A DNA stretch of 51,846 nucleotides. Source: a virus. A program made the translations under genes and the position numbers. The stretch is taken from positions 1-51,846 of IMG/VR virus record IMGVR_UViG_3300041964_000088; one strand, given 5' to 3'. Below, in pieces: positions 1 through 18,227 of the stretch. The notes beneath the pieces were generated by a model. It searched no databases and had not been told where the DNA came from. It saw nothing but the letters and a program-made list of their open reading frames with translations. The stretch's first letter is position 1, and the number at the start of each line of letters is the position of its first letter.

Positions 1-480
1 GTAAAACTCTTTGAAGTCTTCCGCGTTGTCAGGGGCTTTACCTTTGCGGTCAAACTCTTGCTTGATTAGTTCTGCAATTGTCACAACAGCTAATCCTTCC
101 AACGAATGTTTTACGCGGCTTAAGGCAGACTCTAACACTCTAAGCAACTCGTCTACAGGGGCTGCGTTTAGATAGGCTTTGGCTTCTGCCTCAGTAATCC
201 ACTTTGGGCTTGAAGGCGGCTCCTCACCGTCCTTACCTTCCAACCAGGCACGCACTAGGGCAACAGAGATTTGGCGATATTTGGCAATTTTCTCTAGAGA
301 ATCATCCCGCAGACCTTGCTTGCCAATGTTCTTGATTCGCCAGTTGCGAATGGTCTGACCAGTCACCCGATCGCCAGCCGCGTTTGATATTTGCGCTGCC
401 AACTCAGCATCACTGCCAACCCGCCTCACTTCTTTGGTTGTCCAGTCTGCAAGGCGCTCTAGATAGCTGTCTGAAGCCAT
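1..480 (-). CDS. HTH-type regulator, N-terminal part (cut by window edge)
   Basis: Reading from ATG at 480 down to base 1 gives 160 open codons with no stop. The start reads MASDSYLERLADWTTKEVRR, followed by a region with helix-turn-helix character (DAELAAQIS...TGQTIRNWRI, residues 24-52). It is the minus-strand gene diverging from the early operon, the usual place for a phage repressor or regulator, and its upstream region carries palindromic sites. Base 1 is the last base of a codon, and the fragment at 51846-51643 opens in the same frame, so if the molecule is circular this is the first 160 residues of a protein of about 227. The family is unknown to me beyond the HTH character; the regulatory role is inferred from position. 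Confidence 0.6.
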   Translation of the reverse strand, partial: MASDSYLERLADWTTKEVRRVGSDAELAAQISNAAGDRVTGQTIRNWRIKNIGKQGLRDDSLEKIAKYRQISVALVRAWLEGKDGEEPPSSPKWITEAEAKAYLNAAPVDELLRVLESALSRVKHSLEGLAVVTIAELIKQEFDRKGKAPDNAEDFKEFY

Positions 481-490
481 TCCCGTATGT

Positions 491-566
491 CGTTTAGATG
501 TCAATACCTAAACGTTAGCACCTACGATTGTGAAAAGTTTGTAAGTGCACTTGCAAAGTACACTTT
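491..566. promoter_or_regulatory. Palindromic operator-like sites between regulator and early operon
   Basis: An inverted repeat CGTTTAG (491-497) / CTAAACG (508-514) with a 10-base spacer lies just upstream of the minus-strand regulator start. Further on, AAGTGCACTT (543-552, a perfect palindrome) is followed by the near copy AAGTACACTT (556-565). Such clustered small palindromes between a regulator and a divergent operon are typical operators. Which protein binds is not known. I could not identify a convincing -35/-10 pair here. Confidence 0.45.
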
Positions 567-634
567 GATCAATTAGGGTGAGGTCATCAGCAATGAACGA
601 GCTGATCCTAGTTTCAACCAAGCTTTGCGTCCTT

Positions 635-658
635 CCCGTAGCTCCTGCGGGCTTTTTT
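635..658 (+). terminator. Intrinsic terminator ahead of the first early gene
   Basis: Stem CCCGTAG (635-641), loop CTC, stem CTGCGGG (645-651, one G-U pair), then CTTTTTT. This is a good rho-independent terminator on the plus strand. It lies upstream of the first plus-strand gene, so it would stop leftover transcription or act as an attenuator in the early transcript. Confidence 0.7.
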
Positions 659-693
659 AGAATCTCTTGGTACTCCAGTGGTACTCCCGAACT

Positions 694-864
694 ATGAACA
701 GACTCGAACTGCCGCATACCGAGCGCAAGACTCTCGTAGTACATGAATCCCTGTTGCCGCGCATTAAAGCCGCCGCTCAACCACATGAGCATCAATGGCA
801 AACTGTGCAGCGCTTGATCGAAGCGGGTCTGCGTCAGCACAACGCCAATACAAGTAACGCCTAA
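694..864 (+). CDS. Small ribbon-helix-helix-like protein
   Basis: 56 residues from ATG 694 (an upstream TTG at 667 is possible but extends into the terminator region). The pattern KTLVVHESLLPRIKAAA...QTVQRLIEAGL fits a short beta strand followed by two helices, as in Arc/MetJ-type ribbon-helix-helix DNA-binding proteins. It is the first gene of the early region and may be an early regulator. No strong Shine-Dalgarno sequence precedes it. The assignment rests on the pattern alone. Confidence 0.5.
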   Translation: MNRLELPHTERKTLVVHESLLPRIKAAAQPHEHQWQTVQRLIEAGLRQHNANTSNA

Positions 865-869
865 TCTCC

Positions 870-889
870 AGCCTGATTTCTCAGGCTTT
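870..889 (+). terminator. Weak hairpin after the first early gene
   Basis: AGCCTGA (870-876), loop TTTC, TCAGGCT (881-887), followed by only a short T run (TTTG). It lies between the 694 gene and the 927 gene. It could be a weak terminator or an mRNA-processing or stability hairpin. Confidence 0.35.
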
Positions 890-926
890 GCAGCCAACCT
901 AACCGCGTGAGTGAGACGCGATTCGT

Positions 927-1358
927 ATGACACAAACCAACATAACCGACGCAGCCTCAACACTGCTTGCCCAGTTTGAACAATGGGCGCAACTGGAACC
1001 CGATCGCTGTCGGGTAGACACGTACAGCGCTACGCCAGAATTGAAAGCTCAATCTGACATCGCCCTAAAGCTAGGCGATAGCTGGTTTACCGTTTGGGCA
1101 ACCGCTTTTGCCAGCATTTCAAATAGTGGATTAGCCATCCTCCAAGCAGCGTTGCAGGAGGCGATCGTCGCCAAAGGCTGGGATATGTCACTGCATTTCA
1201 CCGCTGGCACAGACGGCGAAGCGGTTGGCTGGATAGGAGAAGTTGACATTCATCGTTTGACTCGCCCTTCCTTCTGGCAAGTATTCCACGAAGCAGCCGC
1301 GATCGCTCTCCTCACCGCATACCTGCAAGCCCTTCGAGCAGAGAGGGCAGCAGCATGA
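927..1358 (+). CDS. Hypothetical early protein, paralogue A of a tandem pair
   Basis: 143 residues, family not recognised. It shares a pattern with the next gene: LLAQFEQWA near the N-terminus, then AILQA..QEAI.AK.WD in the middle and AIALL.AYLQAL at the C-terminus, so the two are tandem paralogues. No transmembrane segment or cysteine motif is visible. The stop overlaps the start of the next gene (GCATGA), implying translational coupling. Confidence 0.7.
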   Translation: MTQTNITDAASTLLAQFEQWAQLEPDRCRVDTYSATPELKAQSDIALKLGDSWFTVWATAFASISNSGLAILQAALQEAIVAKGWDMSLHFTAGTDGEAVGWIGEVDIHRLTRPSFWQVFHEAAAIALLTAYLQALRAERAAA

Positions 1359-1793
1359 ACAACCTCACCTCTCTTACATTGCTTGCCCAGTTTGAACAAT
1401 GGGCAGCAGCAGACTACGAGTTTTGCCGCATCTTTCATCTGAGCGCAGGCATCATCAACATCGAGGTCGGGCTTGATGGCAGATGGGAGCCGATTTGGTC
1501 GGCCCATCTATCAGGTCTTACAGCCAGTAGCAAAGCAATCCTTCAGGCAGTGGTACAAGAGGCGATCGCTGCCAAGAACTGGGACTGCCAGTTATCCCGA
1601 AGCTATGACTACAGTACGCCTATACCCACCCGCATCTGGGAGGCAAAAGTAAGCAACCCGTTTGAAGTTGATGCAACTGGGAGCGCAGTTGTGCATCTCA
1701 TAAACCATGCTGAGTCAGCGATCGCTTTGTTTAGTGCTTACTTGCAAGCACTTGCTGTTTTTGAGGCAGCAGCATGAACAACCTCACCTCTCT
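1346..1793 (+). repeat. 29-bp direct repeat at two gene junctions
   Basis: The same 29 bases occur at 1346-1374 and 1765-1793. Both cover the end of one gene, the overlapping ATGA and the first seven codons (MNNLTSL) of the next. The copies are 419 bp apart and flank the 1355-1777 gene, as expected from tandem gene duplication. Confidence 0.8.
1355..1777 (+). CDS. Hypothetical early protein, paralogue B of a tandem pair
   Basis: 140 residues, recognisably homologous to the preceding product across its whole length (LLAQFEQWA, AILQAVVQEAIAAKNWD, AIALFSAYLQAL). The start region (ATGAACAACCTCACCTCTCT) is repeated exactly at the start of the next gene as part of a 29-bp direct repeat. That suggests the array grew by duplication with crossovers at the overlapping stop/start. 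Function unknown. Confidence 0.7.
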   Translation: MNNLTSLTLLAQFEQWAAADYEFCRIFHLSAGIINIEVGLDGRWEPIWSAHLSGLTASSKAILQAVVQEAIAAKNWDCQLSRSYDYSTPIPTRIWEAKVSNPFEVDATGSAVVHLINHAESAIALFSAYLQALAVFEAAA

Positions 1794-2403
1794 CGCCTGG
1801 TGGCAGGGTAAGCAACCTGTTGCCCCTCAGCCTGCCCCTCGCCCAACGATCGCACCCGAACAAATCATCCTCGCTGCGTTCAAGGTCGATCACGTTTTGA
1901 CAATCCACAGCAAAAGCAGCGCTTCAACGGTCTGCCCTGACCTCCGCGCTGCTCCTACTACTCCCGCAAGGAGTGCAATGCAAGCAATTACTCTATCAGA
2001 TTCAACCCGTTTTTGTGCCTTTCCGGCAAGGCTGATCAATGATTTCGATGCTCTGGTAGCCACCGCTACCGCCATCCTTCGCCATCACCCTGGCATTGAG
2101 CGCGATCGCTTCCTCCTCAAGCTGGGGTTTGAGTTGATCCGCAGTGGCAAGAGCCGCCCCCGTCCCTCGGCTCAGGGAGAACGAGCGCTCAAGCAGCTAG
2201 AGGCAGCAAACATCATTCGACTGCAACCACCGACCGCGATTCGAGAGCAAACGCTGGTCTATCCGGCTGGGTATCGGGTGGCAGTCAAGCCGCGCGATCG
2301 GGCAGTGGATCTGCTGGCGGTTCGGAGTTGGATTGAGCCGAGCTTGGTGGGTACATGGCAACCAGCGGCGGCGGGCAAACGTAATTTTAGGAGAGCGAAA
2401 TAA
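1774..2403 (+). CDS. Hypothetical early protein with duplicated N-terminus
   Basis: 209 residues. The first seven (MNNLTSL) copy the start of the preceding gene, after which the sequence diverges into a Pro/Ala-rich linker. The C-terminal half (about residues 90-170) is helical and basic, with HHPGIERDRFLLKLGFELIRSGK, and might bind nucleic acid. Family not recognised. It overlaps its upstream neighbour by ATGA and the downstream gene begins one base after its stop region. Confidence 0.6.
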   Translation: MNNLTSLAWWQGKQPVAPQPAPRPTIAPEQIILAAFKVDHVLTIHSKSSASTVCPDLRAAPTTPARSAMQAITLSDSTRFCAFPARLINDFDALVATATAILRHHPGIERDRFLLKLGFELIRSGKSRPRPSAQGERALKQLEAANIIRLQPPTAIREQTLVYPAGYRVAVKPRDRAVDLLAVRSWIEPSLVGTWQPAAAGKRNFRRAK

Positions 2404-2621
2404 TGACTGTTTCATTGCTGATCGAAGTCCCAGAAGAGCTGCACGACTCGTTAAAGACGTTCATGGCGCATCGCCCCGACTACGACCAGGATCGCGCGTT
2501 CACGGCTGGCTTATCGCTGTTTCTCATGCAGCACCGTACTGAGCTGGGTCACAACGGTTCACAACGGAAAGCTGCGCGATCGTTCCTCAATGCCGTGTTC
2601 GGTCGAAGGGGTGAGGCGTGA
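2403..2621 (+). CDS. DUF2811-family small protein
   Basis: 72 residues beginning MTVSLLIEVPEELHDSLKTF, then DYDQDRAFTAGLSLFLMQ. This EVPEELH...DQDR.F.A.LSLFL pattern is that of DUF2811, a small family I know from cyanobacteria; the fold may be ribbon-helix-helix-like. A clear ribosome-binding site (AGGAGAGCG) lies upstream of ATG 2403. Its stop overlaps the GTG start of the next gene. Role unknown; a DNA-binding function is only inferred. Confidence 0.7.
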   Translation: MTVSLLIEVPEELHDSLKTFMAHRPDYDQDRAFTAGLSLFLMQHRTELGHNGSQRKAARSFLNAVFGRRGEA

Positions 2622-3193
2622 ATGCAATCAAGAAGCGACCAGTGGCGTTTTATTGCGCCAATGAGGACGAAGCACAGCTCTTGTTTCTACACTCTGCCAA
2701 CCAAGCCAGGCGTACTGACGAGTGGGAAACGATTGAACGGCGACCTGAATACGATTGCTTTGCAGAGCTGGGCTTTATTCCAGACGGCTTGTTATTTCAG
2801 GATGGGTGGTCATCCTTTTGCTGGGAATGTGACCGCACTATTGACAGTGATTGCTGGGACTACGAAGAGGATGTTGAATTACATCCAGTTTTTGAAGGAC
2901 AGCGATCGTTTTGCTCTGAGGCCTGCTGCAACGGTTGGCACGAAGAGCGACGGCGGCGTCGGGAGTTAAAGGCTGAGGCGATCGCACTGGTAACAAACCG
3001 CTATCCAGGCAGCGTTATCGAAAGCGTCTCGGTTGGCTTGTTTGGCCCTACAAGTAAGCAGCGTGTTGAGTTTAGTGTTCCCGGTGTAGCGGGTGTTGTG
3101 TGGGATAGCGCAGAGCCAGATTTTGTATTGATTCGCAAATACGACTTAGAAGATTGGCAGGCATATAAAGCCAGCTTGGGAGTTGCTTCATGA
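2618..3193 (+). CDS. Putative zinc-binding hypothetical protein
   Basis: 191 residues from GTG 2618, which overlaps the preceding TGA. Two cysteine clusters (CWEC near residue 69 and CSEACC near residue 98) could form a zinc site. A strongly basic segment (EERRRRRELKAE) follows, then a compact C-terminal domain. Family not recognised. It ends in ATGA overlap with the next gene. Confidence 0.6.
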   Translation: MNAIKKRPVAFYCANEDEAQLLFLHSANQARRTDEWETIERRPEYDCFAELGFIPDGLLFQDGWSSFCWECDRTIDSDCWDYEEDVELHPVFEGQRSFCSEACCNGWHEERRRRRELKAEAIALVTNRYPGSVIESVSVGLFGPTSKQRVEFSVPGVAGVVWDSAEPDFVLIRKYDLEDWQAYKASLGVAS

Positions 3194-3639
3194 TCCTCCA
3201 ACTCCAGCCAATCGACTACGAAGAAGCCTGCGTGTTTATTAAGCAACACCACAGGCACCATCTCCCGCCGCAAGGGTGGAAGTTCGGCATTGGGTTGAAC
3301 AACGGGCTTACAGTCGTTGGGGTGATCACGGTCGGTCGTCCAGTGGCTAGACACTTTGACAATGGGCTGACGTTGGAAGTGACTCGTTGCTGCACAGATG
3401 GCACCAAGAATGCTTGCTCAATGCTCTATGGGGCTGCATGGCGGGCTGCTAAAGCAATGGGCTATCTGAGGCTCATCACTTACACATTGCAGACGGAGCC
3501 AGGTACGAGCCTTAAATCCGCAGGCTGGAAAGAAATAGGGACAGCGGGGGGAGGTGGTTGGAATCGTCCCAGTCGCCACAGGGTTGATAAAGCCCCCACT
3601 CAGTTAAAGCTTCTGTGGGAAGCCAGAGCCAGCCCCTAA
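3190..3639 (+). CDS. XF1762-like phage protein (acetyltransferase-like fold)
   Basis: 149 residues. The opening (DYEEACVFIKQHHRHHLPPQGWKFGIGL), G.ITVGRPVAR, LEVTRCCTDGTKNACSMLYGAAWRAAKAMGY and TYTLQTEPGTSLKSAGWKE match the phage family usually named XF1762, which is often considered GNAT-like. The substrate is unknown. It is the last gene of the first early block, followed by two strong hairpins. Confidence 0.75.
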   Translation: MILQLQPIDYEEACVFIKQHHRHHLPPQGWKFGIGLNNGLTVVGVITVGRPVARHFDNGLTLEVTRCCTDGTKNACSMLYGAAWRAAKAMGYLRLITYTLQTEPGTSLKSAGWKEIGTAGGGGWNRPSRHRVDKAPTQLKLLWEARASP

Positions 3640-3645
3640 AAAGAA

Positions 3646-3720
3646 TCCTCCCCACTGGTGACGCAGGGGGAGGACTAGACACCGCTTGTTTGTAGGGTTC
3701 GGGAAACAGGCGGTGTTGTT
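3646..3720. terminator. Double-hairpin bidirectional terminator
   Basis: Hairpin 1: TCCTCCCC (3646-3653) pairs with GGGGAGGA (3667-3674). Hairpin 2: ACACCGCTTGTTT (3679-3691) pairs with AAACAGGCGGTGT (3704-3716, one G-U), followed by TGTTTT. It separates convergent genes, the plus-strand gene ending at 3639 and the minus-strand repressor ending at 3721, so it probably serves both. Confidence 0.8.
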
Positions 3721-3948
3721 TTAGCCAGTGCTTAGTTCGTCGTCGGGCATGTACGCCAAAAAATCACCAGGCTGAGCATTGAATGTCTTGCAGATGATGT
3801 CCTGACTCTTGATTGACGGGTAAGCCTTTGGATCGTTCAGCAGACGCACGATCGTCGGTCGAGGAATGCCAGTCCGCTTTGCAATTCCGTAAGCAGTCGT
3901 CTCCCCCCTAGCTTCAAAAAACTCTTTCAGCTTGTTAATCATGACCAT
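3721..3948 (-). CDS. Cro/CI-type HTH repressor (first of two)
   Basis: 75 residues: MVMINKLKEFFEARGETTAYGIAKRTGIPRPTIVRLL..., a complete XRE-family helix-turn-helix domain (about residues 18-60) with little else. It is related to the 48469-48675 protein (K.KEF...RG.T.Y.....TGI...T...L....P and a PGE/D-containing C-terminus). It diverges from the gene at 4131; the shared region contains a near-consensus promoter overlapped by palindromic sites, so autorepression and repression of the 4131 operon are likely. Confidence 0.8.
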   Translation of the reverse strand: MVMINKLKEFFEARGETTAYGIAKRTGIPRPTIVRLLNDPKAYPSIKSQDIICKTFNAQPGDFLAYMPDDELSTG

Positions 3949-3988
3949 TACAAATAACCCTACAGATACAAATTACTGCCAAAAACAA

Positions 3989-4032
3989 GACATGTCAATT
4001 AGCTTGACATGTCAACTTAGTGGACATATGAT
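3989..4032 (+). promoter_or_regulatory. Near-consensus sigma70 promoter with overlapping operators
   Basis: -35 TTGACA (4004-4009), 17-bp spacer, -10 TATGAT (4027-4032). The -35 box lies within a perfect 12-bp palindrome TTGACATGTCAA (4004-4015). A second palindrome GACATGTC sits at 3989-3996 and a related GGACATATG covers the -10 region. This is the arrangement expected of a promoter for the 4131 operon, repressed by the adjacent HTH protein. Confidence 0.75.
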
Positions 4033-4069
4033 CGTAGGTAAGCAAGCGATTCAAAGCTTGCGCATCCAA

Positions 4070-4107
4070 GCTACTCCCGAAGTTTTCTCAGGACCGTTGG
4101 GAGTAGC
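4070..4107 (+). ncRNA. Leader hairpin in the 4131 mRNA
   Basis: GCTACTCCC (4070-4078) and GGGAGTAGC (4099-4107) form a perfect 9-bp stem with a 20-base loop. It lies between the promoter's expected start site (about 4040) and the ribosome-binding site of the gene at 4131. No U-run follows, so it is a structured leader rather than a terminator. Function unknown. Confidence 0.45.
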
Positions 4108-4130
4108 ACCCACTAAGAGGTACTCAGATT

Positions 4131-4454
4131 ATGGCACCCGTAGCAACAGCGGTTCAAGAAAGAACGATCGCGCCCCACCTGGAGATTGTGCAAGTCAAGC
4201 ACGAGCCAGCGCGTCAGATCAACGAAACCTACATCCTGACCGTGAATGACCCTGACAGCACCGCACCGCAAGAGCGGCTCATGGTTTTGGTGCTCGACCA
4301 CTTTGACGAAGAAGAAATCCTGTTCAATGTCTTGACGAATAACTGCCGGATCGATGTGCTGATGAGCGCTATTCGTCGGTTCATGAAGGGCACCGATCGC
4401 GCTCGTCACCGCCTCTGTTTTGAAGAGAGCTGGGTAGCCGCCACGCCTTTCTAA
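4131..4454 (+). CDS. Hypothetical early protein behind a regulated promoter
   Basis: 107 residues, family not recognised. Acidic centre (VLDHFDEEEILFNVLTNNCR) and compact helical C-terminus (IDVLMSAIRRFMKGTDRARHRLCF). It is preceded by AGAGG and by the strongest promoter seen in the window, so it is probably abundant early in infection or induction. It could be an anti-host or regulatory protein, but nothing in the sequence shows which. Confidence 0.65.
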   Translation: MAPVATAVQERTIAPHLEIVQVKHEPARQINETYILTVNDPDSTAPQERLMVLVLDHFDEEEILFNVLTNNCRIDVLMSAIRRFMKGTDRARHRLCFEESWVAATPF

Positions 4455-4512
4455 AGTTTTCTCCTAGTCACGCGGGGTGAGCGATCGCCCCTTCTTTATT
4501 CCTGAAAGAGTT

Positions 4513-5568
4513 ATGAAATGGTTTCGACACGATACCGACATGAGGAAGAATCCCAAGGTTCGCATGGTCATCAGAACTCATGGCGTTACTGGTTATGGCA
4601 TCTGGAGCGCGCTCTTAGAGGAGCTGTACACGCATGAGGAAGGATTCCAGGTTGAAGCTACTCCTTTGTGGTTGGCGACCTTTGCAGACGACTTAAGAAT
4701 TACCGACGATCGCACACTAACCAGAGTCTTTGACACCTTTGCGGAACTGGGTTTAATCTCCGCTCAACTTTGGGCGGAAGGGGTTCTCTATTGCGAAGCA
4801 ATTACGAAGCGCGGTGATGCTTACATCAAACAGCGTACCTACGAAGCAGAGAAAAAACGGAACCAACGAGCCAAAGAAAAAGAATTGTCCCTAGGGACAA
4901 ACAAGGGACAACGGGACAAAGTGCCAATGTCCCCCCCTCAGATATCAGATCTTCAGATCTCAGAATTACAGAATTCAGATCTTCAGATCTCACACACAGA
5001 TCCGGAAAGGCGTGTGTGTGCGATCGAGGAAATTGAAATTCAAGACAGACCGGAACCGGAAACCGAGCCGCTGCCAAAATTCAAACCGTCAACCGAAAGT
5101 TCTGAAGCAAGGTTCCGCCCGCCCGCCGCGTGGCGTTTGAGCAATAAGCGCAACGACTTTGAGCCTGGATTTGTCGAGTCTGTGCGGCTCTACATGGCAG
5201 ATTTGCCGAGCTACAAGGGCAAGAAGGTCACGACTGCGGAGGGTAAAGGTTGGATTGCCAAGCGCGAATTTGACGAACAGGGACTGGCAGAGATTGAAAT
5301 CCGTTGGGAGGTTTACACCCAGGCGATCGCTGCCAAACAACAAGCCGAGGAGCGCCGCCGCGCCGCAGAGCAACAACGCCTTGAGCAACAACGCCAACAG
5401 ACGATCGAGCATAGTCCTGACGAATTAGCCGCGATCGCTCGTCGTCAGCACCTGAGTCGATTGCGCGTCAAGGCAACGCTACCAGGCGAACGCGCCAAAG
5501 CAATTCAGGAAGCGCTCAGTATTGGCGCGACCCTTGCCGATATCGGACTGGAGGAGGCAACCCCATGA
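4513..5568 (+). CDS. Replication initiator-like protein (DUF4373/Lin1244-type N-terminus)
   Basis: The N-terminus (MKWFRHDTDMRKNPKVRM, then GYGIWSALLEELYTHEEGF) resembles the DUF4373/Lin1244-Lin1753 N-terminal domain found in phage replication proteins. I chose ATG 4513 because AAAGAG lies at proper spacing; an in-frame GTG at 4477 would add 12 residues. After residue 125 comes a linker encoded by iteron-like DNA (PQISDLQISELQNSDLQIS), then a C-terminal domain with a long Gln/Glu/Arg-rich helix. The likely job is origin recognition or helicase loading, inferred from the family. It overlaps the next gene by ATGA. Confidence 0.7.
   Translation: MKWFRHDTDMRKNPKVRMVIRTHGVTGYGIWSALLEELYTHEEGFQVEATPLWLATFADDLRITDDRTLTRVFDTFAELGLISAQLWAEGVLYCEAITKRGDAYIKQRTYEAEKKRNQRAKEKELSLGTNKGQRDKVPMSPPQISDLQISELQNSDLQISHTDPERRVCAIEEIEIQDRPEPETEPLPKFKPSTESSEARFRPPAAWRLSNKRNDFEPGFVESVRLYMADLPSYKGKKVTTAEGKGWIAKREFDEQGLAEIEIRWEVYTQAIAAKQQAEERRRAAEQQRLEQQRQQTIEHSPDELAAIARRQHLSRLRVKATLPGERAKAIQEALSIGATLADIGLEEATP
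4945..4992 (+). repeat. Iteron-like repeats, candidate replication origin
   Basis: TCAGATCTTCAGATCTCA occurs exactly at 4945-4962 and again at 4975-4992 (30-bp period). The interval holds related CAGAATT copies and a leading CAGATA copy. The block lies inside the replication-initiator-like gene, as in lambda O, where the origin iterons lie inside the initiator gene. It is AT-richer than the flanks. Confidence 0.55.
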
Positions 5569-6059
5569 TCAACCCTCAAGAGCGCTATCAGCTCAAGGTG
5601 AAGGCACGGGTCGGGAATCGGGTCGAGCGATCGTACTCCTGCCTCTGCTGCCGCGACCAGGCATTGATTCCCGCTGATGTTGTACGCCGTTATGCTGACC
5701 CCGAATTTGATGCTTTCTTGACAGGCGATGTTGCCTATTTCTGCCGCAGACCTGGCTGCGATGCCAACAGCGTCACAGTTCACACCGAAAAAGGGTCACA
5801 AGAAGTGCACCGCTACGCCCTGGATGCCGCCTCGCATGACATCCACCCCGGCAAGTGCAAGCAGATCCATGAGTTGGAATGGCAGCGCATGAGGGAGGCA
5901 GACGCTGCCATGAAGTCAGCCGATGCCCGACCAAACCCGATCACCAGCAACGTCATTGCCGCGATCGCTAAGCCAATGCCCGCCGCTGATCCACCCCCTA
6001 TCCCTGCTACCGCGATCGTTGAGTTTGACCAATGGATGGACCAACAGGAGCTGCTGTGA
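5565..6059 (+). CDS. Putative zinc-binding protein downstream of the initiator
   Basis: 164 residues. SCLCCRDQ (about residues 25-31) and YFCRRPGCDAN (about residues 58-68) give paired cysteines suited to a zinc ribbon. The C-terminus is Pro/Ala-rich and ends with FDQWMDQQELL. Its 4-bp overlap with the initiator-like gene implies co-translation and a role in replication or primer/helicase loading, which is inference. Family not recognised. Confidence 0.6.
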   Translation: MINPQERYQLKVKARVGNRVERSYSCLCCRDQALIPADVVRRYADPEFDAFLTGDVAYFCRRPGCDANSVTVHTEKGSQEVHRYALDAASHDIHPGKCKQIHELEWQRMREADAAMKSADARPNPITSNVIAAIAKPMPAADPPPIPATAIVEFDQWMDQQELL

Positions 6060-6301
6060 ATGAACTCACCATCTATCAAGCCTTTCTCGCCCTCCCTCCC
6101 TCCCGACTCCCCACCGCACCCTTCCAACTCACACCCTGGATTCGCGTTAACGATGCCCGTTGGTTCATCCTCCTCCGCAACGAAGTCAACGCCGCTGTGG
6201 ACTACCTCGAAGGCAGACGCACTCAACCCCACCCACGGCAACGCACAGGCGCACTACTTGCCGACCTTCGCCACCTCAAACCCCATCTTTTAAAACCATG
6301 A
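6056..6301 (+). CDS. Small hypothetical early protein
   Basis: 81 residues from GTG 6056, which overlaps the preceding TGA (GTGA). The product starts MNELTIYQAFLALPPSRLPT and contains PWIRVNDARWFILLRNEVNAAVDYLEG. Stop TGA at 6299-6301 overlaps the ATG of the ASCH gene. I prefer this frame over a Ser/Pro-rich one from 6060 because of these overlaps and its normal amino-acid composition. Function unknown. Confidence 0.55.
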   Translation: MNELTIYQAFLALPPSRLPTAPFQLTPWIRVNDARWFILLRNEVNAAVDYLEGRRTQPHPRQRTGALLADLRHLKPHLLKP

Positions 6302-6831
6302 CAGAAATGCGAATTATTACACTCTGGCAACCCTGGGCAACCCTCGTCGCCTTAGGTCTGAAGCAATATGAAACCCGATCGTGGGGCACTGACTATCGGG
6401 GCGAGTTAGCGATCCATGCGGCTAAACGCAAAGTCAGGCGTGATGAGGTTTTGCCAATCCTTTATGCAACAGGCGGCGGCGGGGTTCCCATGGACGTTCT
6501 TGAAAAGCTTAATTGCCTGCTAGAAGAAACGGAACGGTTGCCACTGGGCGCGATCGTGGCGATCGCCGATTTAACGGAATGCAGGCTTATGACGAATGAT
6601 CCCTACCGGACAGGGGCGCACATATTCAAGCAAACGCCTCTGGAATTAGCGGTTGGAAATTGGGAGAAGGGTCGCTACGCCTGGAAGCTCGAAAATGTCC
6701 GCGCTCTAGATGAACCAATCCCGTTCAAAGGCGGGCAGGGTTTGCGATGGCTATCCAGCCGTGATGATTCCCCAACACTACTAGCGATCGCGGGTCGCCT
6801 GGGCGGTCTAGTGCAAAGCGCCGATCGCTAA
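6298..6831 (+). CDS. ASCH-domain protein
   Basis: 177 residues from ATG 6298, which overlaps the preceding stop. The N-terminus MTEMRIITLWQPWATLVALG with LKQYETRSW and YRGELAIHA is the start of an ASCH (PUA-like) domain; later GAIVAIADLTEC and GRYAWKLENVRALDEPIPFKGGQGL complete the fold. ASCH domains bind RNA or modified nucleosides and are common in phages; some members are nucleases or deaminase-related. The precise activity here is unknown. Confidence 0.85.
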   Translation: MTEMRIITLWQPWATLVALGLKQYETRSWGTDYRGELAIHAAKRKVRRDEVLPILYATGGGGVPMDVLEKLNCLLEETERLPLGAIVAIADLTECRLMTNDPYRTGAHIFKQTPLELAVGNWEKGRYAWKLENVRALDEPIPFKGGQGLRWLSSRDDSPTLLAIAGRLGGLVQSADR

Positions 6832-6868
6832 CGAAGTATTCCAAACTACCTACCCCTCACCCAAAACC

Positions 6869-7234
6869 ATGACCACTGACCTTTCTCACCGCGCCTTTCG
6901 TGCCCACGCCGCCCAGCAGTTAGCCAGCTCTCCCACCTTGCGCGATAGCGTCTTGCACCAGCTACACTCACGCCTCTCTCACCGCACCATGGTCACGATC
7001 GACTCCGCCACCATCCGCTTCGCCTACGCCCCTGGCGAGGAGCCGTTCCTCATCGTTGGCTACAGCAACCAGGCAACGATTGCCCTGCCACAGTACTGGA
7101 TGGAACTGAGTGAGCTCTGCTGGGAGACAGTCTTTGTCTGTGGCATCTCACACTTGCAAATCGTCGGCAAGCGTACAGGCAGCTACTGCCGCTTGGGTCA
7201 AGACGGCAAATGGATTAGGGAGGCCCTGCGATGA
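6869..7234 (+). CDS. Hypothetical early protein
   Basis: 121 residues, unrecognised. Helical N-terminus (HRAFRAHAAQQLASSPTLRDSVLHQLHSRL) followed by a beta-rich part (MVTIDSATIRFAY...FLIVGYSNQATIAL). It overlaps the next frame by ATGA at 7231-7234. Confidence 0.6.
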   Translation: MTTDLSHRAFRAHAAQQLASSPTLRDSVLHQLHSRLSHRTMVTIDSATIRFAYAPGEEPFLIVGYSNQATIALPQYWMELSELCWETVFVCGISHLQIVGKRTGSYCRLGQDGKWIREALR

Positions 7235-7296
7235 CTCAACTTCCCATCCCCGATCCACCCCCAAAGCCCAAGCGTACCTGCCCTCAAGGAGAACCA

Positions 7297-8817
7297 ATGA
7301 CCACCGCAATACGTAAAACAAAGACCGCAGATGAGAAGTTGCCATTGCTCCAGAAGGGCGATCGCATCCGCGGCACCTCACCCAACGGCACACAACACGC
7401 GGGCACCTTTGAGGGCTACAGCAGCAAAGACCTGATTCTTTGCAAAGAAGGGGAACGCACGATCGCCCTCCGTCCTGGCAGCGTCGAACCCGTCACAGAA
7501 TCAGCCCCTAAACTGCCTACTAAAATTACCGAAGTTAACTCAGTCGCCGTTTACAAAGACGCGGTTTATTACTCTGAATCAAAGTGCGGATCGTGGCGGT
7601 TAGCCTCGGATGAGGAAATTGCCGAACTCCAAAAGGGCGATGACGTTTCTGAAGTAGAGCTTCCCTGGTCCTACAAATTCGTCAAGCTTGGTGGCGATGG
7701 CACTGGCGACATGGTTGCCATTTGCGCTTTTGTCGATCACCCCTGCTTCCATTACCACATCCCGGTACAGCGCCTTCAGATCCCAGGTAGAGCCGCGATC
7801 GCCCCCGCCACTCCACTCGAAACACTCAGCGCTGCCATTGCTGCCCTCTACGCTGATGCCGAGCAAGCCGAAGCCACCATGCTTAACGCTGGCAAAGCAG
7901 CACTCTCGCTCTACCTGGAGCTAGGCGAAAAGCTGATTGAGGCGAAGGGGCAAGTGGCTCATGGGCAGTGGCTACCCTGGCTAGAAGAGCAGAAAATTCA
8001 GGAGCGCAAAGCACAACGGGCGATCGCGCTCTTTAAAGGCAGAGCCGCACTTGAAGCCAAAAACGACACACTGACGGATTTAACCCTGACAGAAGCCCTC
8101 GCGATCGTCAGCAACAGAAAGCTCAAAACCGCAACGCCAGAGGAACCCCAAACTGAAAACGCTCCGATCCCCGCAAATTCTCCCCCTCCTGAAGCGACGG
8201 CGCCCGATCGGGTAGCAGAAGATGTCGCGCCAGAAACGGAGCCGCTAGAGGGCAAAAATGGGGCGATCGTGATTGATGAGTATGAGTACGTTGAGATGTC
8301 GCCCCGCGAGTGCTGGTTTGATCCAGGTGGCGGGGTGGTCGAGGGCAGTGCGATCGCCCAAAACGGTAAAGGCTTCGTGCGGATCAACTGGGGCGAGGGA
8401 AGGCAGAGTGATGTGCCAGGTTCTCGGGTGAGTTGGAGCGACCCAGCTATCACCGCAGTCGCTGCTGAGATTGAGACAGGGTTAGCAGCGATCGGGCTTA
8501 AAGTTTGCCGCCCCTCTATTACTCCGGAGGAGTTCAACTGCGAGATGTGGGGCGATCGTCCTTTGCTTCCTAACGGGTTAGCTGAGGAACGTCCCACAGG
8601 TTCACAGTGGTTGCCGGAAGAGGTTGACCACTACGCAAGGATTCAACTGCAAGGGCTGCTTAAGCATTTGTCGCCTAGCGAACTGGTGAAGAGTGCGATC
8701 GTGCATAGCGAATGCAGCTTAGTGGAGGTTGCTCAGCTAATAGTTTCAATGGCAAACAAGAAGCAGTTTGAAGCAATTTGTGATGTGTTGATTAAGGAGA
8801 GCGATCGCAATGTCTAA
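7297..8817 (+). CDS. DUF3102-domain protein
   Basis: 506 residues from ATG 7297, chosen because AAGGAG lies seven bases upstream. The frame is open back to ATG 7231, which would add 22 residues and overlap the previous stop. The N-terminal part has a small beta-barrel-like segment (LQKGDRIRGTSPNGTQHAGTFEGY). The centre (about residues 195-290) has LYLELGEKLIEAKGQVAHGQWLPWLEEQKIQERKAQRAIAL cut into helices as in DUF3102, a phage family with HTH features. A Pro-rich linker and an unknown C-terminal domain follow. A DNA-binding early function is inferred. Confidence 0.7.
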   Translation: MTTAIRKTKTADEKLPLLQKGDRIRGTSPNGTQHAGTFEGYSSKDLILCKEGERTIALRPGSVEPVTESAPKLPTKITEVNSVAVYKDAVYYSESKCGSWRLASDEEIAELQKGDDVSEVELPWSYKFVKLGGDGTGDMVAICAFVDHPCFHYHIPVQRLQIPGRAAIAPATPLETLSAAIAALYADAEQAEATMLNAGKAALSLYLELGEKLIEAKGQVAHGQWLPWLEEQKIQERKAQRAIALFKGRAALEAKNDTLTDLTLTEALAIVSNRKLKTATPEEPQTENAPIPANSPPPEATAPDRVAEDVAPETEPLEGKNGAIVIDEYEYVEMSPRECWFDPGGGVVEGSAIAQNGKGFVRINWGEGRQSDVPGSRVSWSDPAITAVAAEIETGLAAIGLKVCRPSITPEEFNCEMWGDRPLLPNGLAEERPTGSQWLPEEVDHYARIQLQGLLKHLSPSELVKSAIVHSECSLVEVAQLIVSMANKKQFEAICDVLIKESDRNV

Positions 8818-9097
8818 AGGTTTTGATAAAGCCGCAACGAGTCAGTTAGATTCGATCAAAAGTGCAGTTGCAACATTATTTCATGCTGCCAGTTACAAAC
8901 CGCTGATGATTCCGATCGTTCCATCACGTAACAGTCTTGGCTTGCAGAAGGGTCAAGTAAAGACTTGGCATGGCGAATCAATACCAGACTGTACAGGCTT
9001 TGTATTCGCTGTTTCTTGTTCGTCAGAAGAGGCGAAGTTGTTGATCGATCTGCTCACAAATTGGCAGCAGCAAAGGGAGAGCGATCGCAATGGCTGA
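8810..9097 (+). CDS. Small hypothetical early protein
   Basis: 95 residues, unrecognised. The start at 8810 is preceded by AAGGAGAGCGATCGCA, in which the HIP1 palindrome itself forms the spacer between ribosome-binding site and ATG. Nearly the same string precedes the next gene (9077-9092). It overlaps both neighbours by eight bases. Confidence 0.6.
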   Translation: MSKGFDKAATSQLDSIKSAVATLFHAASYKPLMIPIVPSRNSLGLQKGQVKTWHGESIPDCTGFVFAVSCSSEEAKLLIDLLTNWQQQRESDRNG

Positions 9098-9425
9098 ATA
9101 CATCCAATCAGAACACTACTACCTCCAAAATTGTGTCAATGATCGCTACTGGCTTGAGCGCGGTTCTTTGCGTGAAACATACTCAGAGAAAATCAACCAA
9201 GCGCTCCATTCGAGGGACTGGATATTAGCGGATCGGCTTGAACAAGAAGAATCACTAGCTGAAGGCAAACTCATTGCCCAAAAACAGCGAAGCGAGGATA
9301 TCATCTGCTGGCTCAGGCTAGACACCGCACTGAGGCAGGAGGGCAAAACCTATCCCGACGTCTACGAGAGAGTGGCTCACGAATGGTGTGACACCGCGCA
9401 ACTCTTCCCAACCCTTCACCCGTAG
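9090..9425 (+). CDS. Small hypothetical early protein
   Basis: 111 residues, charged and helical (YWLERGSLRETYSEKINQALHSRDWILADRLEQEESLAEGKLIAQK). Family not recognised. The start has the GGGAGAGCGATCGCAATG context shared with the upstream gene, with eight bases of overlap. Probably co-expressed early. Confidence 0.6.
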   Translation: MAEYIQSEHYYLQNCVNDRYWLERGSLRETYSEKINQALHSRDWILADRLEQEESLAEGKLIAQKQRSEDIICWLRLDTALRQEGKTYPDVYERVAHEWCDTAQLFPTLHP

Positions 9426-9455
9426 TACAGTTGATTTAACACAGGCTGAACAACC

Positions 9456-9830
9456 ATGAACCTGGCAGACCTCCACAAAGAATTGCAGCAAGTCAAGACG
9501 CACAATCAAACGATCGAGGCGCGGTTAGAGTGGTTTGAACGCATCTTCAAATCCCTCGTCGGAGTCTCTGGTCCCTGGCTCTCCCCCGCCAAAGCAGGCG
9601 CACTGTTAGGCGTGAGCCGAGACAGGATCATGGATGAGATCACACTGGCAGAGCAAATGAGAGCCAGCAGCAAACGTTGGGATGTCGTCTATGGCACTCA
9701 CTACCGCACGATCCAAGGACTCGACAGCGAAGCTCCAACCTGGCAGATCAACGTGCAAGCGTTTGAGCAGATTCTGAACTGCCCACCCGATCAACGAGCA
9801 ATGGGTATGAGCGATCGGAGGGTAGGTTGA
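9456..9830 (+). CDS. Putative excisionase/HTH accessory protein
   Basis: 124 residues: an N-terminal coiled coil (LHKELQQVKTHNQTIEARLEWFERIF), then SPAKAGALLGVSRDRIMDEI (about residues 43-62), a winged-helix/excisionase-like HTH. It is convergent with the integrase, with the two stop codons six bases apart. Position and motif suggest a recombination directionality factor. This is not proven by sequence alone. Confidence 0.5.
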   Translation: MNLADLHKELQQVKTHNQTIEARLEWFERIFKSLVGVSGPWLSPAKAGALLGVSRDRIMDEITLAEQMRASSKRWDVVYGTHYRTIQGLDSEAPTWQINVQAFEQILNCPPDQRAMGMSDRRVG

Positions 9831-9835: not shown

Positions 9836-11014
9836 TCAGCGATCGCCCTGCTCCCTCAACTCTTCGCTCTTCATCCGCTCAAACACCCCTTGGTGCTGCG
9901 ACTCACTGATCGCCTGCAAATAAATTTTTGTCCGCACTGCAACACTATGACCCGCCCAACGCGCCGCCACACCATCAGGTACACCTAACAAGGCTGTCCG
10001 AATGCACCAAGCGTGTCGCAAGTCATAGGGGTCATGCCAGATCTTCTGTTCCCTGAACTCCTGCGATATCTTTCGCCCCAAGTCCTTGTTGCTCTTGCCC
10101 TCGGTCTGGATATCGGGCATCTGCACATTCCACAACTCAAAGCGATCGCGCCATGCAGATGGACAGGGATAGGCTAGCCGCTGCCCCGTTTTGGTCTCTT
10201 CAAACACACGCACTGCTTCCGTCTGCTGCGTGAACCGCTCCAGGTCCAGGTGAAAGATTTCATGTGGTCGCAAACCATAGGTTGCCAGCATCCCATAGAC
10301 CCACTTCCACCCTGGCTGCTTAATGCCGTGCCACAGTTCTAAGATTTGCGCTTCTGTTGGCAAGTCTTCTGGCTTCACTGGCGTGGGTTCATAGCCGCGA
10401 CTCAGCTCTAAGACTGCCAGCCGGAAACCTTCAAACGAGTCAGCATCGATCGCGCCTTGCCGCTTCATAAACTCCGCTAGCTTCCGATATGCCATGCAGA
10501 AGACCTCTCTGCTGCGAGTCTCTGGCTCCGACTCTTGCAGCAGTGTTCGCCTTAGCAAGTCCAGTGTCAACAACTCCGCCTGAGGCAAGCGCCGGAAGAT
10601 CAGCCGATAGTTGTTGTGATAGCTGCTGTCCTTGCTGGCAGTGCGTTGCGTCGTTTGCCAGTGCGCTGTCTCATAGCGCTCTACCCACTCTGCCACGGTT
10701 GTTGCTGGCTTGTGCTTCCCTTTCAGCCACGGCTTCCAGTCAAACTTCCCCCAGAGGATCTGATTGTCAATTTCTTGCGCCTTAAGTTTCGCTAGCCGCA
10801 GGCCCGCGATCGACGCATTGCAACCCAGCGCAAATTCTTCGCGCTTTGCGACTGACTCGCCAGGGCGTGGGGGAAACCGCCGCCCCCGCACATAGAGCTT
10901 GTCACCCTTCTGCCTGAGCGTGATCGTCTCCAGGCTAGCGTTAATGGCCTGGATCTTCGCGTCTAGATCGTTCCCCGCTTCCCCCAAGCTTCCCCCAATT
11001 TGCCCCAAAATCAA
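9836..11014 (-). CDS. int: Tyrosine recombinase (phage integrase)
   Basis: 392 residues. The C-terminal catalytic domain shows R249 (ATYGLRPHEIF), R333 in DPYDLRHAW, H356 in RWAGHSV and the nucleophile Y365 in RTKIYLQ. The usual first His of the HxxR box is Tyr here. The N-terminal part has a basic arm-binding-like segment and a SAM-like core-binding region. The annotated start is TTG with no good ribosome-binding site, so the true start may differ. It catalyses integration and excision; the adjacent tRNA-Ser fragment at 11083-11150 is its likely attachment site. Confidence 0.9.
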   Translation of the reverse strand: MILGQIGGSLGEAGNDLDAKIQAINASLETITLRQKGDKLYVRGRRFPPRPGESVAKREEFALGCNASIAGLRLAKLKAQEIDNQILWGKFDWKPWLKGKHKPATTVAEWVERYETAHWQTTQRTASKDSSYHNNYRLIFRRLPQAELLTLDLLRRTLLQESEPETRSREVFCMAYRKLAEFMKRQGAIDADSFEGFRLAVLELSRGYEPTPVKPEDLPTEAQILELWHGIKQPGWKWVYGMLATYGLRPHEIFHLDLERFTQQTEAVRVFEETKTGQRLAYPCPSAWRDRFELWNVQMPDIQTEGKSNKDLGRKISQEFREQKIWHDPYDLRHAWCIRTALLGVPDGVAARWAGHSVAVRTKIYLQAISESQHQGVFERMKSEELREQGDR

Positions 11015-11056: not shown

Positions 11057-11082
11057 AACGGCTGAAAGCCTGATTTGAGTAA

Positions 11083-11150
11083 CGGAGAGGGGGAGATTCG
11101 AACTCCCGTTGGGTTACCCCAAACCTGATTTCGAGTCAGTCCCACCAGGT
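11083..11150 (-). other. attP: attP-like 3' fragment of a tRNA-Ser(CGA) gene
   Basis: On the minus strand the sequence reads as the 3' part of a class II tRNA. The anticodon loop CTCGAAA has anticodon CGA (11133-11131). A long variable arm follows with stem TTGGG/CCCAA. The T arm is GGGAG-TTCGAAT-CTCCC (11107-11091), then acceptor strand CCTCTCC and discriminator G at 11083. The D arm and 5' acceptor strand are absent, and the anticodon stem has an A/G mismatch at its base, so this is not a functional tRNA. Phages that integrate into tRNA genes carry exactly such a 3' portion to rebuild the host gene. Phage genes lie on both sides. Confidence 0.75.
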
Positions 11151-11257: not shown

Positions 11258-11530
11258 TCAAGCAGGCTTTTGCAACGCGATCGCATCGCGTCCTAAGCTA
11301 CCTGGGAGCAGCACGATCGCCTCCGGTCTAGCGTTGCTCATATAGCGCCCGTACACGGTCCCCCCATCGGCTGCTTCTAATTGTCGTAGTCCAGTCGCTG
11401 TGTCGCGGCGGGTATAGGTGGGAGTGGTTGCCAAGGGTTGGTCACGCTGTTGCTGACGACGCAGGGAGAGCGATCGGCTCATGTTCCCCAGTCGGGTCTG
11501 CTCAATTGCGTCTCGGTGTGAGTCGTTCAT
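11258..11530 (-). CDS. Small late protein, related to its upstream neighbour
   Basis: 90 residues, last gene of the late operon. Its opening (MNDSHRDAIEQTRLGNMSR) parallels that of the upstream product (MTLSDRHRELIEETRTANRAR), and both continue through a Gln/Arg-rich stretch to ATGL and a DG..V/I.G segment. It may be a shortened paralogue. ATG overlaps the upstream stop (ATGA). Function unknown; probably virion or tail-tip associated. Confidence 0.6.
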   Translation of the reverse strand: MNDSHRDAIEQTRLGNMSRSLSLRRQQQRDQPLATTPTYTRRDTATGLRQLEAADGGTVYGRYMSNARPEAIVLLPGSLGRDAIALQKPA

Positions 11531-12504
11531 TTAAAGGCAAACTCCCAGGTCGTTTTGTAGGTGTAGTAGCCGTTATCGTCGCTCTGGTCGAAGATAAAAA
11601 TGAAATGGTCGCGGCGGGTGTTAAAAGCGGGAATGATGCCTTTGATCGTCTCACCTGCATATTCCCCTGGTGGGCGATCGACAAACCCTGTACTGCTGGC
11701 AGGAAACGGCGGCTGTACAAAGCTGGTGGCATCAAAGTCGCCAAGGTCAAAATCGTCACCTGTTAGTCGGATGGAGTTAAGGACCAGCCAGTTTGTTAGC
11801 TCCTTCTCTCCCCCTGCCGAGTTGCCCTCTGCTACCTCCGATCGTACGCTAATCGTGACGGGTAGCCTGCTGCGCTTGAGGACGTAAAAACTAGCACCGA
11901 CAGTCGTTTGCTTAGTGCCATCGATGGCGCCCTCAAAAGTCAGCTTGAGTTTGCGATTCGTCGTGCGAATGCGGGTTGTGATCAAGCCCTGCCCGTTGAC
12001 GATGCGATCTGCGTTGGCAAAGCTAACCTCTTTGGTCACGCCCCCACCGCGAAACGTATAAACCTGATCGGTGGCACGGATGCCAAAGAAATCAAGCTCA
12101 AAGCCAATCTCTTCAACAACCTCTTCCTCGTAGTTCCAGACCTGCCCGTTGATGTAGCCCACGTTGTTGTCTTTGAGCGCTCCCTGCGTGGCAATGCCCC
12201 TCACACCCTCCTGCTCTGGCAGCGTCAGCGGTGAGAGTTGTCCCTTCTGCCCCAACAGCCCGATCGTGCCATCTGTCAGGGGTAAACCCGTCGCCATGTC
12301 GCCTTTGACCGAGTGAGCGTCGTAGAGCTTCCGCCCGTTTGCCGTCTCGGAGCCATCGGGGTAGAGAGCGCTGTAGTTGCCTGTCAGTGGGTCACGATCG
12401 CCAATCCGTTGGGGCACTGGCTTAGACTTGCCTGCCTGCTGTCGGGCACGATTGGCAGTGCGGGTTTCTTCAATCAGTTCCCGGTGTCTGTCGGAAAGGG
12501 TCAT
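11527..12504 (-). CDS. Late virion protein of unknown function
   Basis: 325 residues. The N-terminal 100 residues include DRDPLTGNYSALYPDGSETANG and repeated G/L-rich turns. The C-terminal two thirds are beta-rich (VYTFRGGG, LITTRIRTTNRKLKLTFEG) and end with YYTYKTTWEFAFK. Such composition near the end of the tail operon suits a tail-tip or baseplate-fibre protein. Family not recognised. Confidence 0.6.
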   Translation of the reverse strand: MTLSDRHRELIEETRTANRARQQAGKSKPVPQRIGDRDPLTGNYSALYPDGSETANGRKLYDAHSVKGDMATGLPLTDGTIGLLGQKGQLSPLTLPEQEGVRGIATQGALKDNNVGYINGQVWNYEEEVVEEIGFELDFFGIRATDQVYTFRGGGVTKEVSFANADRIVNGQGLITTRIRTTNRKLKLTFEGAIDGTKQTTVGASFYVLKRSRLPVTISVRSEVAEGNSAGGEKELTNWLVLNSIRLTGDDFDLGDFDATSFVQPPFPASSTGFVDRPPGEYAGETIKGIIPAFNTRRDHFIFIFDQSDDNGYYTYKTTWEFAFK

Positions 12505-12587
12505 AGCCTAATAGGTGGGTCAACACTTCGCGCCGATGCGCTAATCTTCTTGCCTTCTGCCTTCGGTACTCTTTGAGAAGTAAAGCT

Positions 12588-12611
12588 CTTACGCAAGGCA
12601 GACTGCGTAAG
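12588..12611. promoter_or_regulatory. Perfect hairpin within the late operon
   Basis: CTTACGCA (12588-12595) and TGCGTAAG (12604-12611) form a perfect 8-bp stem with an 8-base loop, in the 143-bp gap between two late genes. No U-run follows on either strand, so it is more likely an RNA-processing or stability hairpin, or a protein site, than a terminator. The rest of this gap shows no gene. Confidence 0.45.
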
Positions 12612-12648
12612 AAGCGCTGGCACCAGTTGTAGTTGGCACATTTTCTCA

Positions 12649-13347
12649 TCAGGCTGCATTGCGGGCACGCAGGATGATGGTCACGATCTTTGGCGCGCCT
12701 GGGTTGACGCTGACATCAGCCGACTCAGTTGTGAGCTGTGGCTCTGTCCCTGTCGTGTTGCCGATCGTACCTGTCGCACCCCGCAAGAACAGGACGTGAC
12801 GGAACACCATTGCTGTACCAGTCGCGCTATAGGTGGCAGAGAAGGGTGCTTTTTCACCTACTGCACCGATCGCCGTTGCTGCTGCCAGTCCCGTAATCTC
12901 CTGTCGGCTGTAGCTAGCGTGGTTGAGTTCTTTGTTGATCAGCACCGTGATGGGGTCAGCGTCCGTCAAGCGTTGCTCGGTCAACGTGTGGGAGCCGCTG
13001 CCAGTACCAGTAAAGTCGATCGCTGTGCCTGCAAGAGCATTGGCGAGAGTGGTGGCTATTTTGCCCGTGGTCGTGGTGTCTGCGATCCAAAAGTAATCAG
13101 TAGTGGTGTTGAGAGTGCCACTGTTGAGGACAGGTAGAGTGCCTGTCGTGGACAGTCGGACACGTGAGCCTGTGACCATGCCGTGCGGGGTGGCTGTCGT
13201 GAGGATGTCGGTCGAGGTGTTCACCGTGAACGTGTTGCTGTAGAGATCGCCCCTCAGCAGGATCAAACGCCCGAGGGAAGTGGATGGTGCCCAGATACGA
13301 TCGGCGATCAGGGCAAGGGAAGCAGCAGAAAGAGTGCCAGCGCTCAT
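12649..13347 (-). CDS. Tail fibre/tip-like protein
   Basis: 232 residues, Thr/Gly/Ala-rich and predicted beta. The central segment (TPHGMVTGSRVRLSTTGTLP..., residues about 52-125) resembles the repeats seen in phage tail-tip and fibre proteins that read 'TA.PHGL.TGD.V'. The last residues carry KIVTIILRARNAA. Start ATG overlaps the acyltransferase stop (ATGA). Likely a host-recognition or tail-tip component. Confidence 0.55.
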   Translation of the reverse strand: MSAGTLSAASLALIADRIWAPSTSLGRLILLRGDLYSNTFTVNTSTDILTTATPHGMVTGSRVRLSTTGTLPVLNSGTLNTTTDYFWIADTTTTGKIATTLANALAGTAIDFTGTGSGSHTLTEQRLTDADPITVLINKELNHASYSRQEITGLAAATAIGAVGEKAPFSATYSATGTAMVFRHVLFLRGATGTIGNTTGTEPQLTTESADVSVNPGAPKIVTIILRARNAA

Positions 13348-14354
13348 ATAGTTCTCCGGAGAAAGGGACGTTCAAAAGCCAACGAAAACAGCCAGCAACC
13401 GAACAGGACGGGGAGAGCTTGAAGGGCGATCGCACCCCACCCTACAACGCCCTGCCAACCCAGCCACCGACCGCTATAGGCTAGTAAGGCATAATGCATT
13501 AGGTACAGGCTATATGACCATGTTGCCAACCAGCCTAGCCATGGGTGAGAAAGTAGGTCGATCGCTCGGTTGTTTTTGCCTATCAGTACAGCGTGAGCCA
13601 TTGCCTGAAGCAGCATCGCCACCATTCCCCCAAACAGTAGATCGGTAACGGGTAGCATTCCTAGCACATAAGGCTCGGTTGGCAGTTGGCTTTTGATGGC
13701 AATGGAAGCTGTGAGCAGCGCGATCGCTGGCAACATTACAGGCAGTTTGCAATCCAATAATTGCGCGGCGGCGATGCCAAAAACGAAGGCAAACAGCAGC
13801 CACAGATGCCCATTTGGTAGCCCTGTCGTCGCCAGGATTGACGCACCCAGACAGTAGAAGGCGATCGCACTCAACCCCAATCCTGCAAAGCGCCAACGCC
13901 TAAAACAAACGGCAAACACGGGCACTAACAGGTAGAGCCGATACTCGATCCCTACCGACCAAAACACGACTGACCCTGAAAGCCAATCAGTTGGGTCAGG
14001 GAATAGCTCTCTCACCATGAAAAGGTTTGGCAGTAGCTCTCTGAGTGGGAACTGTAGCCAAATACCAGAGCGTAAAGCCTTCGCCATCACCAGCAAGCAC
14101 AGCACCGCTAACGCTGCGAAGTATGGAGGCAACAAACGGCGCGATCGCCTGCCCATGAATGCCAAAACATTGCGTGATCGCTCTAGTTGCAAGCCCAAAC
14201 AAAACCCGCTCAAAACAATGAAGGTTGTCACCGCTTCATAGCCCCATTGTGTCAGCCCATAACCCATCCACGGAAACTGCTGATGATAAGCATGGTGGCA
14301 GAACACAAACAAGGCAGCAAGGGCGCGAACACCGTCCAGGAAGGGGAATATCAT
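13344..14354 (-). CDS. Membrane acyltransferase (acyltransferase 3 family)
   Basis: 336 residues from ATG 14354, chosen because it overlaps the upstream TGA (ATGA). The start FLDGVRALAALFVFCHHAYH contains the family's early Arg and His. About ten hydrophobic segments follow, with RRLLPPYFAAL and WSVGIEYRLYLLVPVF typical of the acyltransferase 3 (OafA/NodX-like) family. These integral membrane enzymes O-acylate cell-surface sugars. The gene sits inside the tail operon between the distal tail protein and a fibre-like gene and is translationally coupled to both. It may alter the host surface or a receptor, an inference from known seroconversion genes. Confidence 0.85.
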   Translation of the reverse strand: MIFPFLDGVRALAALFVFCHHAYHQQFPWMGYGLTQWGYEAVTTFIVLSGFCLGLQLERSRNVLAFMGRRSRRLLPPYFAALAVLCLLVMAKALRSGIWLQFPLRELLPNLFMVRELFPDPTDWLSGSVVFWSVGIEYRLYLLVPVFAVCFRRWRFAGLGLSAIAFYCLGASILATTGLPNGHLWLLFAFVFGIAAAQLLDCKLPVMLPAIALLTASIAIKSQLPTEPYVLGMLPVTDLLFGGMVAMLLQAMAHAVLIGKNNRAIDLLSHPWLGWLATWSYSLYLMHYALLAYSGRWLGWQGVVGWGAIALQALPVLFGCWLFSLAFERPFLRRTI

Positions 14355-17530: not shown

Positions 17531-17715
17531 TTCGTCTCTGCTGATTCCCCTTTCTCCGCACAGTTGCGCCGGATTTCTCCTGCTACCTGCTCCAGCGCGA
17601 TCGCCCAACTGATGGCATCGGGAAACCCATCACAGATCTCAGTGAGCCATGCCGCGATCTGTTCCTGCTGCTGCCGAATTGTCTGCTGGTCGATACTGCT
17701 GCTGGAATAACTCAT
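17527..17715 (-). CDS. Small late protein
   Basis: 62 residues, acidic and helical: QQTIRQQQEQIAAWLTEICDGFPDAISWAIALEQVAGEIRRNC. It overlaps both its neighbours by ATGA. Unrecognised; its place just after the 182-residue tail protein suggests a minor tail or assembly role. Confidence 0.6.
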   Translation of the reverse strand: MSYSSSSIDQQTIRQQQEQIAAWLTEICDGFPDAISWAIALEQVAGEIRRNCAEKGESAETK

Positions 17716-18227
17716 GCTTGTAGTGCCTGAAATTGGAGGAGGTAGCGATCGGGTGTCAAGAAAGTTTTATAGTCGGCATCCACATCGAGCCAAACGTTGT
17801 AGGCAGCATAACCCTCTGGATAACCTAGAGCGCTCGTGACGGGGTAGCCAGCCAGCCACGCAGGTTCCCTGGTTGCCCCAGCAATGTAAGTCGTTCGCTC
17901 GAACTCATCAACCAGTGTCACAGGGGCAGCAGTACTGTTCTGCGTGGCTAACAGGATCTCAAACAATTGGATCATCGTGCGAGTCACCGTAGCGCTGATC
18001 TGCCATTCCTCGGGCGGTTTGTAGCCCGCACCCTTCACCCGCACCCCACCTGTTAAGCTGCGACCATCCGAGGTCTGCCAATCACGCAGGCTGGACTTGT
18101 AGCCCTCTGCCCCTGGGAAGACACTGATCAGCAGGGAGTGCGCTACAGCGGGATGCGCCAGCGTGACCCGTCGCCAGGTTGCGAAGGGGTGAGTGGGGGT
18201 GAGTCCGAAGAGATGAGCAATGGGCAT
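17712..18227 (-). CDS. Tail protein downstream of the tape measure
   Basis: 171 residues from ATG 18227, whose codon overlaps the tape-measure stop (TAATG); a longer start at 18260 would lie inside the tape measure. Contains PFATWRRVTLAHPAVAHSLL, GGVRVKGAGYKPPEEWQISATVT and WLDVDADYKTFLTPDRYLLQFQALQ. Its position matches distal-tail (Dit-like) or minor tail proteins of siphoviruses. The family is not recognised with certainty. Confidence 0.6.
   Translation of the reverse strand: MPIAHLFGLTPTHPFATWRRVTLAHPAVAHSLLISVFPGAEGYKSSLRDWQTSDGRSLTGGVRVKGAGYKPPEEWQISATVTRTMIQLFEILLATQNSTAAPVTLVDEFERTTYIAGATREPAWLAGYPVTSALGYPEGYAAYNVWLDVDADYKTFLTPDRYLLQFQALQA

Follow-up and report, generated by a model that had tools for sequence, protein, structure and literature searches.

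Gene content of the window

The window analyzed in this work is an entire single virus record (IMGVR_UViG_3300041964_000088), 51,846 bases long, with an early operon on the plus strand, a late operon on the minus strand, an integrase and an attachment site between them, a Rad52-like and a PAS-like gene on the plus strand towards the right-hand end, and a minus-strand gene divided between the two ends. The early operon (927..9830) includes a replication-initiation-like gene (4477-5568, plus strand) and is collinear up to 8798 with locus L017 of a second virus record (see below). The late operon (11258..47165) comprises tail, head and unassigned genes, and matches to PHROGs families were found there for the tape measure (18227-22099), the portal (36593-37888) and the large subunit of the terminase (38350-39699), all on the minus strand; together with a head morphogenesis match, these are the genes by which a tailed phage is recognized. 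An O-acetyltransferase-like gene (13344-14429; phrog_3333, 1.3e-29) lies in the terminal part of this operon, and its product possibly modifies the host surface.

The Rad52-like recombination gene (49919..50833, plus strand; PF04098, 2.3e-7) is 98% identical in L017 and is the final strongly conserved gene ahead of the junction of the two record ends. It adjoins a polynucleotide kinase 3'-phosphatase-like gene (49305-49835; PF08645, 2.3e-5), and the two could form a phage DNA-repair pair. It is followed by the PAS-like gene (50981..51646, plus strand), recognized by a weak PAS_4 match, which is convergent with the gene at the junction, their 3' ends overlapping by 4 nt.

Integrase, attachment site and probable hosts

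A tyrosine integrase is encoded on the minus strand at 9836..11014 (phrog_1 integrase, 3.6e-11; PF00589, 7e-4). At 66 bp from its start lies the attP (11081..11139, minus strand), 59 bp of a tRNA-Ser(CGA) gene from the anticodon loop to the 3' end, present as one copy in the window and flanked by the integrase on one side and the end of the late operon on the other. Because the attP is intact, occurs once and lies well inside the window, the window does not end at prophage borders, and the integrase and the late operon, which would sit at opposite ends of an integrated copy, are adjacent here, so that the record represents the unintegrated form. The sequence-only reading had taken the tRNA fragment, together with the spanning frame, as favoring a complete circle, and its position between integrase and late operon fits an unintegrated genome. 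Phages that integrate into tRNA genes restore the 3' end of the tRNA upon integration, and in this case the integrase would recombine attP with the tRNA-Ser(CGA) gene of the host.

The attP is identical at 58 of its 59 positions to the intact tRNA-Ser(CGA) gene of Tildeniella nuda, and at 57 of 59 to that of Leptolyngbya sp. FACHB-321. It is from the att sequence only that we place the probable hosts among the relatives of Leptolyngbya and Tildeniella. In Leptolyngbya sp. FACHB-321 the tRNA-Ser(CGA) gene is adjoined by a remnant of a related integrase with an in-frame stop (L028, 6785-7079), which looks like the scar of a related element, as would be expected of one. The window as a whole contains 88 copies of the cyanobacterial repeat GCGATCGC (HIP1), which fits a long residence in a cyanobacterial host.

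A gene divided between the record ends

On the minus strand, 1..480 contains 160 open codons from an ATG (an alternative in-frame TTG start is found at 504), the N-terminal portion of a repressor-like, putatively DNA-binding protein, while 51643..51846 contributes 67 C-terminal codons and a TAA in the same phase. Fused, 480-1 and 51846-51643 give a stop-free gene of 684 nt and 227 amino acids, with the join at residues 160|161. The sequence-only reading had described these open, in-phase frames correctly, but its estimate that they would agree by chance one time in three was too optimistic, since an open reading frame of at least 227 amino acids spans 47% of 3,688 random joins made between distant points within the window. 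A spanning frame is thus poor evidence of circularity here, and it is homology and gene order in relatives that carry the conclusion, the latter being good evidence. No direct terminal repeat of at least 9 nt was found between the window ends, and the outer 2 kb of each end have no 14-mers in common. The exact 25-nt junction sequence is absent from viral_contigs, a collection that may omit near-identical records.

Codon usage clearly favors the minus frame of 1-480 (log-odds of 39 bits, with every other frame negative). Over the final 204 bases the opposing plus-strand frame scores 9.2 bits versus 0.9 for the claimed minus frame, and for the 67-codon tail fragment codon usage is uninformative.

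The best match of the joined protein among whole genomes was obtained in G045, to a 260-amino-acid gene on the minus strand (L033, 1342-2124), and the alignment covers residues 2-180, extending beyond the join. The N-terminal 160 codons are homologous to this gene (shuffle p about 1e-10); the 67-residue tail alone, compared pairwise with the same regulator, gives p 0.18, below significance. Two further regulators, in L049 and L050, have 239 and 279 amino acids. A profile built from the C-terminal domains of the L033, L049 and L050 regulators, with the window excluded, gives 14.3 bits for the joined C-terminal region versus 5.8 for the N piece and 4.4 for the C piece. When tails were shuffled in place, 14.3 bits was reached in 8 of 3,000 cases, and the tails of 43 window genes used as controls reached a maximum of 12.7 bits. 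Given the pairwise result for the tail alone, we take this line of support for the joined gene as moderate and not decisive. Two other matches are short proteins that stop before the join, L039 (151 amino acids) and L034 (161), so the N-terminal part of the junction gene can stand alone. Database comparison of the joined protein had been proposed as a check on circularity; L033 aligns past the join, and L039 and L034 cover the N-terminal part alone.

Searches of phages, plasmids, viral_contigs and genome_contigs with the joined protein gave zero matches, no Pfam or PHROGs family matched it, and nothing significant came from a search of solved structures. Nor did viral_contigs, searched with the L050 regulator, yield a relative. 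A single-sequence fold of the 160-residue fragment had a mean pLDDT of 47 and was left unused owing to its low quality. The gene reads leftward from 480, divergent to the rightward early operon, in the layout of a repressor, and its positional relative in L049 carries HTH_3 (2.6e-6, above the Pfam cut-off). From this position and this domain we infer that the junction gene is the minus-strand immunity or lysogeny repressor of the phage, a regulator that would repress the divergent plus-strand early operon. The putative immunity gene sits exactly at the record ends, where annotation of the record as linear would lose it.

Gene order across the junction in related phages

By means of the Rad52-like gene we reached a related record of 39,405 bp, IMGVR_UViG_3300041964_000080 (G001; loci L017, L025, and L026), which is collinear in one piece of ~37.7 kb with window 23541..51846|1..8798. 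The DNA matches, mostly about 79-97% identical, keep a single order and orientation from 23541 to 50933 and then from 578 up to 8798; since they pass from 50933 to 578 in order, the window ends are neighbors in this phage. Its record stops short of the integrase, attP and tail end seen in the window. The regulator at the junction in L017 is a gene of 112 amino acids (339 nt) without similarity to the joined 227-amino-acid protein; being unrelated, it leaves this phage as evidence of adjacency and not of the junction gene itself. The PAS-position gene is separated from the first matched block past the junction by 461 nt in L017, counted from its stop codon, versus 777 nt in the joined window, a difference about as expected from the lengths of the two regulator genes (339 and 684 nt).

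That first matched block is a box of 84 bp on the plus strand (578..661), 100% identical to 12258-12341 of L017, at the head of the early operon, with flanks that diverge between the two phages. Within viral_contigs the phage of L017 is its sole other carrier. It contains a 22-codon frame, MNELILVSTKLCVLPVAPAGFF, the end of which overlaps a terminator-like hairpin (635-651), and it is possibly a leader or attenuator.

The second case is a phage-like region on contig C89 of G053, a genome from the taxonomic order to which Leptolyngbya sp. FACHB-321 belongs; the region is identical over the part compared to IMGVR_UViG_3300034630_000009 (72,210 bp). At the protein level it is collinear with the window through the junction (38.4-40.0, 46.5-48.5, then 0.7-6.3 kb). 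Its terminase is 73% identical and its early genes appear in the same order, although it is larger than the window and contains unrelated segments. Both relatives thus run across the point where the record ends meet.

The PAS-like gene and its convergent partner

At the equivalent place in L017, L033, L049, L050, and G053, a plus-strand gene is convergent with an uninterrupted minus-strand gene. Three of the five minus-strand regulators (L033, L049, and L050; 239-279 amino acids) are relatives of the joined protein, and the spacing between the stop codons of the pairs ranges from a 47-nt overlap to a 24-nt gap, a range into which the 4-nt overlap of the window fits. The plus-strand neighbor in L033 is strongly similar to 50981-51646 (score 237 versus a shuffled mean of 31), and it was by searching with this neighbor that the pairs of L049 and L050 were retrieved. 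The gene at the PAS position in L017 is only marginally similar to that of the window (p 0.008). In G053 the partner of the PAS-position gene is a minus-strand gene of 247 amino acids; its product does not resemble the joined protein significantly in sequence, so it counts as positional evidence only. A four-member PAS-like profile also matches PAS-type regions of long cyanobacterial proteins.

Several cyanobacterial genomes and phages thus have a PAS-like gene facing a convergent repressor-like gene, the sequence of the latter differing from one to another. The pair matched nothing in PHROGs, and in Pfam nothing above the family cut-offs. One could speculate, as an improbable scenario, that these conserved pairs are a lysogeny switch of cyanophages that has no name yet. 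The PAS-like protein would sense a host cue of the light or redox type and control the repressor, and the arrangement would be preserved when the repressor sequence is exchanged.

Completeness and form of the genome

We are confident that the window gives the genome of a temperate tailed cyanophage in essentially complete form, with probable hosts related to Leptolyngbya/Tildeniella, as a circular permutation cut at an arbitrary position within the probable lysogeny-repressor gene; very probably, the phage is a temperate virus of filamentous cyanobacteria. The DNA would come from an excised or replicating circle, or from circularly permuted (terminally redundant) virions, and the assembly would have been closed into a circle and its overlapping ends removed. 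The circular complete genome proposed from the sequence alone is supported, in the form of an essentially complete and circularly permuted one, by relatives that are contiguous across the ends, by relatives of the junction gene that extend beyond the join and by the internal attP. What was an unlabelled contig can now be read as a temperate cyanophage genome that is essentially complete, has a defined attP and points to a likely group of hosts.

The precision of the join deserves more caution. The ends might adjoin with a few to tens of bases missing or altered between them, the assembly having broken in a strain-variable immunity gene, a situation we hold to be rather unlikely. Strain mixtures do break assemblies at such places, the regulator cassette is wholly different in the near relative L017, and inserting 4-10 residues at the join leaves the profile score nearly equal to that without insertion. 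Against it, the reading frame is preserved across the join, the L050 regulator aligns with the joined protein gap-free over it, and the intervals of 777 and 461 nt approximately match the regulator gene lengths. There is even less room for a linear fragment with an in-frame join arising by chance, for which we see very little probability: the frequency of spanning frames among random joins would permit it, but both G001 and G053 C89 run through the join, three regulators of similar length occupy the equivalent place, and the window carries genes for integrase, portal, terminase, tape measure and replication.

A prophage cut from a host contig was also considered, as the window has both an integrase gene and an att sequence derived from a tRNA, and related integrase remnants are present in host genomes. 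It is just as improbable as a chance join, and we rejected it on the grounds that the lone attP is internal, with the integrase and the late operon on either side; besides, the window ends fall within a gene and carry no att repeat, and they are neighbors in G001 and G053 C89, which is impossible for an integrated copy unless prophages lie in tandem.

A published case resembles the unintegrated, circularly permuted phage genome described here. Synechococcus elongatus PCC 7942 carries a 49-kb prophage with an att site formed by the last 60 bp of a tRNA-Leu gene and a putative Cro/CI-type switch, and its excised circle has been demonstrated by PCR (PMC9239245). The likeness, drawn from the published description, lies in a temperate cyanophage of similar size with an att site in a tRNA gene, whereas the tRNA concerned is tRNA-Leu in that prophage and tRNA-Ser(CGA) in the window.
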